Source: an uncultured Verrucomicrobiota bacterium (GTDB lineage Bacteria > Verrucomicrobiota > Verrucomicrobiia > Limisphaerales > UBA9464). From it: DNA of 55,369 bases. The stretch is taken from NCBI GenBank assembly GCA_903939515.1, contig CAJAHH010000133.1:1-55369 (forward strand), given 5' to 3'. Under the pieces are notes generated by a model that saw nothing but the letters and a program-made list of their open reading frames with translations, did not search any database and was not told where the DNA came from. This document shows, piece by piece, positions 8,666-43,796 of this stretch (the stretch's first letter is position 1; each line of letters starts with the position of its first letter). A program made the position numbers and the translations under genes.

Positions 8666-8831
8666 AGCCGGAACGATTCAGTTGGGAGGAAAGGGATGGC
8701 GTCGCGGATTCTTTCGCAAAGCGAGGCGAGAGCGAGGCGCGGGCCGATGGAGGCCCGTAACGAGTGAACAACGAAGCTCTTGCGGAAGAAGACGCAGCCA
8801 GCACGACCGATCCCATCGCATCGTTCCGGCT
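8666..8831 (+). repeat. Palindromic repeat element, copy A
   Basis: 166 bases beginning AGCCGGAACGATTCAGTTGG and ending with a partly matching inverted copy of that end (CATCGTTCCGGCT). The interior is about 90% or more identical to copy B next door. No protein is encoded; the short open frames through it merely read the repeat. The two copies abut one another. Confidence 0.9.
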
Positions 8832-8832
8832 G

Positions 8833-8997
8833 GCCGGAACGATTCAGTTGGGAGGAAAGGGATGGCGTCGCGGATTCTTTCGCAAGACGAGGCGAGAGCG
8901 AGGCGCGGGCCGATGGAGGCCCGTAACGAGTGAACAACGAAGCTCTTGCGGAAGAAGACGCAGCCAGCACGACCGATCCAATTGAATCGTTCCGGCT
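8833..8997 (+). repeat. Palindromic repeat element, copy B
   Basis: 165 bases with 20 bp terminal inverted repeats: GCCGGAACGATTCAGTTGG at the left and CCAATTGAATCGTTCCGGCT at the right, matching with one mismatch. The A-B pair is bounded by the 5-mer CTAAG on both sides (8663-8667 and 8996-9000), which could be a target-site duplication but overlaps the inverted repeat. Confidence 0.9.
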
Positions 8998-38334: not shown

Positions 38335-38742
38335 CCTGTAGGTCTGTGGTTCACTCTATTTGATCTCTGTGGGGTTCGAATGATGAAGTTGGGTCGATGA
38401 CTGAGCCTTTTGATTCAGCTTAGAATAGAAGCAGAATCTTTTCGGAGCTTATTTCTTCGGAGTCGCAGTCATGAGTGGCTGGCATTCAGTGGGCCATGAT
38501 GGATCCACGATTGAGGGCGCGACGGGCTTTTGTTCATCGTCCGCCTCTTGGGCTTTACTGCGAATGCATTTTCAGGCTCAGATTTCGCCCGTACCACCGA
38601 CGAAGGCCGTGCTATTAAAAGGAACTGATTTCGTTCAAAACCGGTGACTTTGTGAAAAAATTCACAAAAGCCACTTGCTGCCGGAGGGATCGAAAACATA
38701 GTTTGCGGCATCCGCGGGGACCACTCCCCGCCATTTTGGTTT
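38335..38742 (+). promoter_or_regulatory. Upstream region of the nuo operon
   Basis: 408 bases without a gene. No nuoA is found here in any frame. It contains the CRP-like palindrome at 38649-38668 and, 6 bases later, TTGCTG and CATAGT spaced 16 bases apart as a weak promoter candidate. The ribosome binding site before nuoB is weak. Confidence 0.5.
38649..38668. promoter_or_regulatory. CRP/FNR-family consensus operator
   Basis: TTTGTGAAAAAATTCACAAA is a perfect 8 bp inverted repeat with an A4 centre. It contains TGTGA-N6-TCACA, the exact CRP binding consensus. It lies 75 bases before the nuoB start. A CRP/FNR-like regulator of respiration is the likely binder; none is encoded in this window. 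Confidence 0.6.
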
Positions 38743-41260: not shown

Positions 41261-41752
41261 ATGAGCTTTTCCGTCCCCGCCAGTTTGGAAGCCGAGCTCG
41301 ATGAGCTCACCACGCACTATCCGGTCAAGCGGAGTGCCTCGCTGATGTTCCTGCACGCGTTGCAGGAGCACTTTGGGTACATTTCGAAGGATGCCGTCGA
41401 GTGGACCGCCCGCAAGCTGGGGCTTCAGCCGATTAACGTGTACGAGTTGGTGACGTTCTACCCCATGTTCCGTCAGGAACCGTTGGGCAAAACGCATATC
41501 AAGGTGTGCCGGACCCTGAGTTGTTCATTGGCCGGAAGCGCCGAGCTCCGGGAGCGATTCTGCACCCGGCTTGGCCTCGACCCTCACGCTCATGCGGCAC
41601 AGACCACGCCCGATGGCCAGTTCACAGTAGAGTTCGTGGAGTGCCTCGCCAGTTGCGGGACCGCACCGGTTGTCTTGGTCAACGAAGACCTGCATCACAA
41701 GGTCGGCACGGCCGAAGCCGATGCGATTCTCAAGCAGGGACAAAAAGCTTAA
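41261..41752 (+). CDS. nuoE: NADH-quinone oxidoreductase subunit E
   Basis: 163 residues. The thioredoxin-like fold holds a 2Fe-2S cluster (N1a) with cysteines in CRTLSCSL and ECLASCGTAP. YVSKDAV-like YISKDAVEW and VTFYPMFRQEP are typical. After this gene the operon is interrupted for about 595 bases before nuoF. Confidence 0.95.
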   Translation: MSFSVPASLEAELDELTTHYPVKRSASLMFLHALQEHFGYISKDAVEWTARKLGLQPINVYELVTFYPMFRQEPLGKTHIKVCRTLSCSLAGSAELRERFCTRLGLDPHAHAAQTTPDGQFTVEFVECLASCGTAPVVLVNEDLHHKVGTAEADAILKQGQKA

Positions 41753-42219
41753 AAAGCCCAAAATAGTCTGAACGCCTTCAACACCATGAACCCACTCGTT
41801 GCTCAAAGGGTCTGCTTGGCAGAGCCCGCTGGGTACCGCGTGTCTGTGGCGTGGATGATTGGGCCGTGGGTTGCTAGAGGGTGTGCCGGGAATAGCACCG
41901 GGGGCCCAGCCTCGGTTTTCGCTCAGACCCTCCGGAGAGTTCTTGGAACTGCCAGTCGCAAAGGCTTAGAGCCGTTGGCTTTCTCGCGGGGGATGGGAGT
42001 GCGGAAAATAGCGGCTTCGAAAACAAAGGCGCTGAAAACAGGACTGCCGAAAAAGCAGGATTCGGAGACTGGGGTTGAGGCGACTGGGGTTGAGGCGACT
42101 GGGGTCGAAATTTTTCGAACTTTGACCCTCTTCAAAGCGCTAAAAACGGCGCTAAAAACGGCCCTAAAATCAGGCCTTAAAACGGCCAAAAGAATTTCGA
42201 AAATTTCGGTCCCAGCGAA
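41753..42219. repeat. Repeat-rich spacer between nuoE and tRNA-Gln
   Basis: No gene is credible; an open frame on the plus strand reads antisense through the tRNA. At 42067-42107 GACTGGGGTTGAGGC is repeated about 2.6 times. From 42137 GCGCTAAAAACG-type units repeat; on the tRNA strand AGCGCCGTTTTTAGCGCTTT forms a small hairpin with T-runs that could end the tRNA transcript. The rest shows nothing recognised. Confidence 0.5.
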
Positions 42220-42293
42220 TGGTTGCCCGACATGGATTCGAACCATGACAAACAGATTCAGAGACTGTTGTGCTACCATTACACAATCGGGCA
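42220..42293 (-). tRNA. tRNA-Gln (anticodon CUG), antisense within the nuo operon
   Basis: On the minus strand TGCCCGA pairs with TCGGGCA (7 bp acceptor, with the U1-A72 pair typical of tRNA-Gln). A D-arm with AATGGTAGC, an anticodon loop CTCTGAA (anticodon CTG) and a perfect T-arm CATGG-TTCGAAT-CCATG follow. The discriminator A and an encoded CCA end follow at 42223-42220. The anticodon stem has one mismatch next to the loop. No other RNA gene was found in the window. Confidence 0.88.
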
Positions 42294-42347
42294 GCCAGAA
42301 CCGAAGTGGTGACCGTACTAGGAACTTTCTCTGAGTCAAGAAAAGCT

Positions 42348-43796
42348 ATGCCGGAACCTTTTAAATTGATTCTCAAGAACCTCGATGAGCCGGGCTTCAC
42401 GCCGGACATTGGGTGTTATCAGCGCCATGGCGGTTACGAGGCGCTCAAGCGGGCTCTGGCTATGCCAGCTCGTGATTTGCCTGATGGCAAGAAGCTCAGT
42501 CCTCAAGAAGCGCTTCGCGAAGACGTCAAGGCTTCAGGGTTGCGCGGTCGTGGTGGCGCGGGTTTCTCGGCCGGCCTTAAGTGGAGCTTCGTGGACCGCC
42601 GCAGCGGTAAGCCGATCTATCTGATTTGCAACGCCGACGAGTCCGAACCGGGCACCTTCAAGGATCGTCAAATCCTCCACAAGGATCCGCACCAGTTGAT
42701 CGAGGGGATGATCCTCTCGTGCTGGGCCAACGACGTAAAGCTGGCCTACATTTACATCCGGGGTGAGATGCCCGTTGCGGCTAAGTTGTTGAATCAAGCC
42801 CTTAAGGAAGCCCGGGCAGCCGGTTTTCTGGGTAAGAATATTTTGGGCACGGGTTATGATCTGGAGATTCACGTGCATCGCGGCGCCGGCGCCTATATTT
42901 GCGGTGAAGAGACCGGTTTGATCGAATCCCTCGAAGGCAAGCGGGCTTACCCCCGGATCAAGCCTCCTTACTTCCCGGCGGTCTTGGGGCTCTACATGTG
43001 CCCGACCATCGTGAACAACGTCGAGACGCTGTGTCACGTGAAGCACATCGTACTCATGGGGCCGACCGAGTACGCCAAGCTGGGCACGCCCAACAACACT
43101 GGCACCCGCATCGTCAGCTTGAGCGGCGATGTGCAGAAGCCGGGTTACTACGAGATTCAAGTCGGACGGGTCACTTTGGGCGAACTGATCTTCGACCCCA
43201 ACTTCGGCGGCGGACTCAAGCCGGGTCGTACCCTGAAAGCCATCATTCCGGGCGGTTCCTCCTCGAAGGTTCTGAAGGCCGGCGAGGTCTTTAAGCTGAA
43301 CCGCAAGGGGGCCGATGGCCAAATGGCCAAGGTGGATGTGTCGTTGCTCGACCTGCCTTACGATTTTGATTCCCTGCAGCAGGCAGGCACCATGTCCGGT
43401 TCCAGCGCGGTCATCGTTCTGGATGATTCCCGAAGCATGGTCCAGACGCTTGGCAACTTGTCCGAGTTCTACGCCCACGAGAGCTGCGGCCAGTGCACGC
43501 CCTGCCGCGAGGGGGCTCTTTGGCTCTCCAAGGCAACCCACCGTTTGAGCCATGGCGAAGGTCGCAAGGCCGATGCCGATTATCTCACCCACATTGCCCA
43601 GAACATCCAAGGGCGTACCATTTGCGCCTTCGGCGAGGCAGCTGCCTGGCCGGTCCTGAGCTTTGTGAAAAAATTCCGGGACGAGTTCGAAGCCCAGGGT
43701 GCGGCCGATGAGGCGGCCCATGCGAAGTCCCAAGGAACCTCGTCGCCCAAGTCGTCCGACCCTCGTTCGGCGGCAGGAAGCCTTCAAACCCACTGA
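42348..43796 (+). CDS. nuoF: NADH-quinone oxidoreductase subunit F
   Basis: 482 residues. GLRGRGGAGFSAGLKWSF (NADH/FMN site), CNADESEPGTFKDR, and ESCGQCTPCREG (4Fe-4S N3) with a last Cys in CAFGEAAAWP. It binds NADH and FMN and starts electron flow. The ATG at 42348 was taken; the frame is open upstream across the tRNA. A Ser/Pro-rich tail is added. Confidence 0.96.
   Translation: MPEPFKLILKNLDEPGFTPDIGCYQRHGGYEALKRALAMPARDLPDGKKLSPQEALREDVKASGLRGRGGAGFSAGLKWSFVDRRSGKPIYLICNADESEPGTFKDRQILHKDPHQLIEGMILSCWANDVKLAYIYIRGEMPVAAKLLNQALKEARAAGFLGKNILGTGYDLEIHVHRGAGAYICGEETGLIESLEGKRAYPRIKPPYFPAVLGLYMCPTIVNNVETLCHVKHIVLMGPTEYAKLGTPNNTGTRIVSLSGDVQKPGYYEIQVGRVTLGELIFDPNFGGGLKPGRTLKAIIPGGSSSKVLKAGEVFKLNRKGADGQMAKVDVSLLDLPYDFDSLQQAGTMSGSSAVIVLDDSRSMVQTLGNLSEFYAHESCGQCTPCREGALWLSKATHRLSHGEGRKADADYLTHIAQNIQGRTICAFGEAAAWPVLSFVKKFRDEFEAQGAADEAAHAKSQGTSSPKSSDPRSAAGSLQTH

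Follow-up and report, generated by a model that had tools for sequence, protein, structure and literature searches.

A putatively translated open reading frame links nuoE and nuoF across an antisense tRNA-Gln(CUG) gene in the Limisphaerales

Genomes of the order Limisphaerales (class Verrucomicrobiia according to NCBI) carry a tRNA-Gln(CUG) gene between nuoE and nuoF, on the strand opposite to the respiratory nuo operon. The tRNA gene has a promoter motif of its own, and an open reading frame (ORF) in the direction of the operon runs through its complement. Across the order, this bridge ORF recurs with a preferred frame, a start at or near the nuoE stop and a stop usually close to the nuoF start, as in coupled operon genes. 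We propose that translation of the bridge would take ribosomes past the anti-tRNA, from nuoE on to nuoF. To this reading we assign a probability of roughly 0.6; translation, re-initiation and the resulting benefit are all deduced from sequence.

The window analyzed here is a stretch of 55,369 nucleotides from an uncultured member of the order, and constitutes one whole contig (CAJAHH010000133.1) of a 4.7-Mb draft genome. In the ORF list, nuoB, nuoC, nuoD and nuoE are followed by 595 bases and then by nuoF to nuoN, all in one direction (Table 1). The identity of nuoB, nuoE and nuoF was established with Pfam and the remaining nuo genes were named by eye. A sequence-only reading of the window had singled out this gap as exceptional, and the comparison bears it out: between nuoB and nuoN, no other gap with a clear start is longer than 53 nt (the start of nuoM is not fixed). 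Directly 5′ of nuoB, at 38335-38742, the ORF list contains no plus-strand ORF of NuoA length.

Table 1. Coordinates and supporting evidence for the elements in and around the nuoE-nuoF gap of the window
Feature	Position	Strand	Evidence or remark
nuoE	41261..41752	+	Pfam PF01257, E 3.3e-44
Bridge ORF, 182 aa	41786..42334	+	ATG 33 nt past the nuoE stop; TGA 13 nt before nuoF
15-bp tandem repeat, 2.6 copies	42067..42105	+	Score 78; in the bridge-ORF frame, five-residue unit
12-bp tandem repeat, 4.2 copies	42137..42186	+	Score 63; in the bridge-ORF frame, four-residue unit
tRNA-Gln(CUG), 3′ ACCA encoded	42220..42293	-	ARAGORN; Rfam RF00005, 61.4 bits (cut-off 29); fold -22.2 kcal/mol
Predicted tRNA promoter -10, TACGGT (order-wide TANNNT)	42312..42317	-	Read from sequence; motif conservation
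Predicted tRNA promoter -35, TTGACT	42334..42339	-	Read from sequence; motif conservation
nuoF	42348..43796	+	Pfam PF01512, E 5.4e-47

The tRNA-Gln(CUG) had been recognized on the strand opposite to the nuo genes in the same reading, and both the tRNA scan and Rfam accept its fold. On the plus strand, no Rfam match to a tRNA was obtained at 42220-42293. The cloverleaf, the CUG anticodon, the encoded 3′ CCA and the promoter motif point to a functional tRNA gene. Elsewhere in the genome, its DNA matches only a UUG tRNA-Gln, located on a different contig. By eye, and with no statistic attached, a conserved terminator 3′ of the tRNA is not evident, and in two congeneric loci (L019, L020) a hairpin followed by a T-run lies downstream. 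The anti-tRNA folds at -18.9 kcal/mol (z -1.6), which is not exceptional.

Judged from the loci compared, the placement of the tRNA is a trait common to the order. In the genus, nuoE is close to nuoF in 18 of 19 genomes, and all 19 loci of these 18 genomes contain the antisense tRNA. In each of them, 54 nt separate the tRNA 5′ end from a nuoF ATG, and the distance between nuoE and the tRNA ranges from 35 to 467 nt. At the family level 50 genomes were searched, and the tRNA is present in all 47 that were examined; one genome was left out with only a distant nuoF match (G046) and two with no match (G018, G028). In the rest of the order, nuoF matches occurred in 129 genomes, and the loci of 105 of these were fetched. 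An antisense tRNA-Gln precedes nuoF in 101 of these 105 loci, one of which (G095) reads UUG. Three of the remaining four are cut by a contig end. The last (G113, family f61) has no tRNA in its 106-nt gap, in a genome that is 57% complete and yields zero tRNA-Gln matches. Among loci of named genomes, which include a Pedosphaera sp. and a ‘Limisphaerales bacterium’, the tRNA occurs in 76 of 80, and the other four lie at most 268 nt from a contig end.

The sample from outside the order comprised 40 loci of 25 families, 39 from the same class and one from another. Here the antisense tRNA was found once (G202), so that its placement is perhaps also present in one neighboring lineage. The nuoE gene adjoins nuoF in 29 of the 40 loci, with a spacing of 4-78 nt in 28 and 222 nt in one; five further loci have no nuoE in the stretch fetched. 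The other five resemble fused genes, with an apparent single nuoE-nuoF frame: L268 (G203), L272 (G206), L288 (G266), L291 (G237) and L299 (G362). The split between nuoE and nuoF, for which a comparison of spacing in relatives had been proposed, is therefore order-wide and not local to the window. These counts derive mostly from metagenome-assembled sequences and from families which are not fully independent; at one locus (L163, G147) the nuoF start was misplaced by the alignment and left uncorrected.

The tRNA-Gln(CUG) is predicted, from a conserved motif, to be driven by its own promoter. TTGAC occurs 38-47 nt 5′ of the tRNA in 116 of 116 order-wide loci from 49 families (106 read TTGACT), and TANNNT follows exactly 16 nt past it in 110. 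Shuffled spacers contain this pair in 22 of 23,200 cases, and both elements are present at this spacing in all 19 congeneric loci. The distance from the -35 box to the tRNA is nearly constant. The distance from the -35 box to nuoF spans 3-420 nt, and 3-9 nt in 63 of the 116 loci. In the window, the complement of the -35 box sits in the nuoF leader and has one base in common with the bridge-ORF stop. At 30 other tRNA loci of the same genome, with 35 tRNA predictions (some repeated), TTGAC lies 35-60 nt upstream in seven and TANNNT at a suitable spacing in three, which suggests that the motif is of a kind used by this genome.

The bridge ORF of the window is unbroken across the entire tRNA complement, with comparatively loose ends (+33 and -13 nt). 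In a Pfam search at E 0.01, this ORF gave no match. The gap also contains the repeats which the sequence-only reading called a minisatellite. Short tandem repeats are indeed present; they are in-frame coding repeats of the bridge ORF. A regulatory array is not favored, since the repeats differ among congeners and those of the window are in frame. A match to the sRNA ncS54 at 42003-42071 was rejected at 19.2 bits against a cut-off of 43.

In all 13 congeneric loci with a long gap, the same frame is open over the gap and the tRNA; in five of them a second frame is open too. Within three groups of congeners (5, 3 and 4 loci), the distances from the start to the tRNA vary by multiples of 3 only. 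A crude estimate of dN/dS gave 0.34-0.87 in 17 of the 18 pairs with a value and 1.3 in the other. Among the six short-gap congeners, four (L014-L017) offer only a TTG start, L020 has an overlapping ATG and L019 has none.

Order-wide, a bridge-type ORF of 31 to 182 aa is present in 111 of 127 loci with an adjacent nuoE (37 of 45 families). In the overall test, the ORF had to start near the nuoE end, remain open through the tRNA and stop between -60 and +10 of nuoF. The null model keeps nuoE, the tRNA and nuoF, and shuffles and shifts the spacers. Leaving out four loci whose nuoE overlaps the tRNA, 109 of 123 loci qualify against 26.7 expected (family-averaged, 34.3 of 42 against 9.3); the position limits were chosen after looking at the data, which makes this test partly post hoc. 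The excess is also seen where spacers are long. With at least 90 nt between nuoE and the tRNA, 37 of 42 loci qualify against 2.9 expected. With at least 80 nt between the tRNA and nuoF, the ORF stops within 15 nt of nuoF in 12 of 19 loci against 0.2 expected. Additional loci from named genomes, tested with the same limits after one duplicate (L186, same genome as L007) was dropped, qualify in 8 of 10 cases with about 1.8 expected, mostly in similar lineages.

The ends of the ORF resemble those of operon genes. The motif NTGA is found at the nuoE stop in 83 of 127 loci of the order and in 2 of 29 linked loci outside it; for ATGA, the corresponding counts are 56 and 0. Among the 111 bridge ORFs, 59 start at -4 of the nuoE end through this NTGA overlap and 83 use ATG. 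With one locus per family, the frame set by the NTGA start matches in 25 of 34 against 14.7 expected (P 1.8e-4). The stop usually lies at most 45 nt from nuoF in the relatives, and at most 2 nt from its ATG in 20 of 123 loci, where 1.1 are expected. A Shine-Dalgarno-like sequence precedes nuoF in 12 of 127 loci; we discarded its absence as proof of coupling, because such sequences are also rare in the loci from beyond the order (7 of 35) and ahead of the window's other nuo genes.

The signal is specific to the frame. Outside the genus, 45 of the 48 loci with a gap of at least 40 nt keep frame 0 open from the nuoE end onward, against 25.9 expected, whereas frames 1 and 2 are at chance with 27 (26.6 expected) and 28 (26.1 expected). 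In 118 of 127 loci, frame 0 passes through the anti-tRNA without a stop; in 69, no other frame does. The bridge ORF uses frames 0, 1 and 2 in 75, 27 and 9 of the 111 loci, and in 30, 6 and 4 of the 37 families, some of which use two. The bridge frame follows whichever one the anti-tRNA leaves open, and beyond that the families do not share a conserved peptide. Openness opposite the tRNA says little by itself, since at least one such frame is found in 127 of 127 tRNAs at the locus in the order and in 20 of 21 distinct tRNA-Gln of the outgroup.

The remaining 16 of the 127 linked loci do not qualify. Twelve are plain exceptions, including the congener L019. In the other four (families f5, f15, f35 and f40), nuoE itself ends within the anti-tRNA. 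At these loci, L172 (G088), L177 (G063), L178 (G192) and L179 (G053), the tRNA complement encodes the last NuoE residues and the stop, and the C-termini read ARHGFEP, AEHGFEP or LPNMDSNHD.

These features can be joined in a working model. No later than in the ancestor of the order, a unit of promoter and tRNA-Gln(CUG) would have been placed between nuoE and nuoF in antisense orientation, and it would have been retained since. The nuo mRNA would thus contain the complement of both tRNA and tRNA promoter, with nuo transcription presumably reading through the tRNA gene. If left untranslated, a stretch of more than 120 nt with a folded anti-tRNA inside would be open to Rho. In the model, ribosomes which end nuoE would re-initiate on the bridge ORF, often via the NTGA overlap, translate through the anti-tRNA, stop near nuoF and hand over to it. 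Translation of the bridge would then prevent Rho-dependent termination and stop the anti-tRNA from folding or pairing, and the synthesis of NuoF would be coupled to that of NuoE. Rho is encoded in the window genome, which has two rho-like genes: G000:C20:4600-5838 with 668.5 bits, above the family cut-off of 509.45, and G000:C116:21314-22414 with 484.8 bits, just below it. The product of the bridge is probably unimportant and selection would act on the stretch being translated, since the bridge frame differs between lineages. We lean slightly towards the stronger form of this idea, in which the frame is selected only for being translated, so that order-wide the peptide changes freely and the frame switches to one the anti-tRNA leaves open.

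It had been pointed out, correctly given a real tRNA on the opposite strand, that expression of the nuo genes and of the tRNA must be reconciled, perhaps by a separate nuoF promoter. In its full form, this would make nuoF to nuoN a transcription unit of its own and the open frame a by-product, which we regard as unlikely. Part of the case for it comes from broken operons. In five genomes of the order (G059, G144, G095, G118, G127), nuoE is elsewhere, at a distance of about 264 kb in G144, whose genome is a single contig; in all five the tRNA nonetheless stands next to nuoF. As a test of the bridge these genomes are mixed. In the two from family f11 (G059, G144) there is no bridge, and 67 and 74 nt separate the end of the through-frame from nuoF; in the other three, the frame is still open through the tRNA. 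The two f11 genomes also have in common a promoter-like block in the sense direction 5′ of the tRNA, amid otherwise diverged sequence, and such a candidate is seen only in these operons broken after nuoE. In two more genomes (G132, G143) a contig end cuts off the nuoE linkage. Outside the order, the gene 5′ of the tRNA in G202 is not nuoE, and no anti-tRNA frame is open there. A separate nuoF promoter would also suit 14 further loci in which nuoE and nuoF stand 0.7-1.4 kb apart with other sequence in between; in 12 of these loci, the first in-frame start of the frame through the tRNA is an NTGA. In two of these (G195, G086), the TGA of this motif terminates an inserted ORF, as judged by eye. 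Inserted ORFs between nuoE and the tRNA in L082 (G065), L114 (G129), L121 (G195) and L122 (G086) resemble, by eye, PIN-type toxin-antitoxin or nucleotidyltransferase cassettes.

An independent nuoF promoter leaves unexplained why a frame-specific ORF has coupled ends. In the window, a consensus promoter scan of both strands returned no promoter-like site; its threshold also passes over the promoter of the tRNA, so that this negative is weak. Compact loci leave little free DNA for a nuoF promoter: among order-wide loci with an adjacent nuoE, the tRNA lies at most 9 nt from nuoE or overlaps it in 31 of 95, and in 14 of these 31 the tRNA -35 box is also at most 9 nt from the nuoF start. Such a promoter may lie within nuoE or the tRNA. 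For intact operons we favor a coupled frame through the anti-tRNA; both arrangements can exist in different lineages. A different view takes the bridge ORF for a small functional protein (‘NuoX’) with the tRNA on its opposite strand. Its operon-gene-like placement with tight junctions, a dN/dS mostly below 1 in the genus and a core of roughly 25 residues that is almost invariant in most families would fit. However, this core is conserved solely because it is the complement of the tRNA, and the flanking residues appear unrelated between families by eye. The use of three frames yields unrelated peptides, lengths are as disparate as given above and the three examples searched have no Pfam match, so we consider such a protein improbable. 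We hold it to be very improbable that the bridge is just a spurious ORF in the shadow of the tRNA, of the type dropped by annotation pipelines. Admittedly, 20 of 32 distinct tRNAs at the other loci sampled from the window genome have at least one open opposite-strand frame, and Bakta is described as filtering such ORFs with AntiFam (PMC8743544). But the signal sits in the flanks, the start, the stop and the frame, and the null model retains the tRNA, so that its openness cannot yield the excess.

Translationally coupled operon genes are known for ATGA-type overlaps. The bridge resembles them in its starts at -4 and its stops next to the nuoF ATG; unlike such genes, it conserves only its frame and ends, and the tRNA complement is its only conserved sequence. 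Among published cases, the closest one found comes from Shewanella and a few Ferrimonas, where a reversed tRNA-Sec gene overlaps the selB 3′ end (Mukai 2021, PMC8124441). In that paper, the tRNA-Sec promoter is placed around the stop of the selB ORF, and in same-strand selB-selC cases the ORF stop often overlaps the following start. In both systems a protein ORF, here continuous beyond chance, takes in the complement of a tRNA on the opposite strand. In Shewanella, the frame is described as a C-terminal extension of selB itself, and tRNA and selB serve the same pathway (PMC8124441). In contrast, the Limisphaerales have a mostly separate ORF with no conserved product, a tRNA-Gln(CUG) and a complex I operon in dozens of families; an extension of nuoE accounts for only 4 of 127 loci, and these are closer to the selB case.

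According to PMC8743544 and PMC9710616, filters of the AntiFam type regard shadow ORFs on the strand opposite a tRNA as spurious and remove them. Like such shadow ORFs, the bridge would derive a peptide from a tRNA complement; unlike them, it keeps its frame in the flanks, outside the RNA gene, far above chance. These filters may be the reason why the bridge has gone unnoticed, and the case suggests that they can hide real translated frames. The arrangement is described nowhere in the titles and abstracts of the open-license PMC literature searched, which is weak evidence of novelty. The case shows how a core respiratory operon can share its DNA head-on with a tRNA gene throughout a bacterial order. 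With gaps from 1 to several hundred nt, three frames and broken operons, the order also offers a natural series for asking whether the transcription of an mRNA continues only if the mRNA is translated.

Two further observations concern the window and its genome. A second, divergent nuoE/nuoF-like pair (L025, G000:C111:67445-69408), with 34% and 42% identity, stands without a tRNA. In the window, a 166-bp unit occurs at 8667-8997 in two tandem copies with 96% matches.
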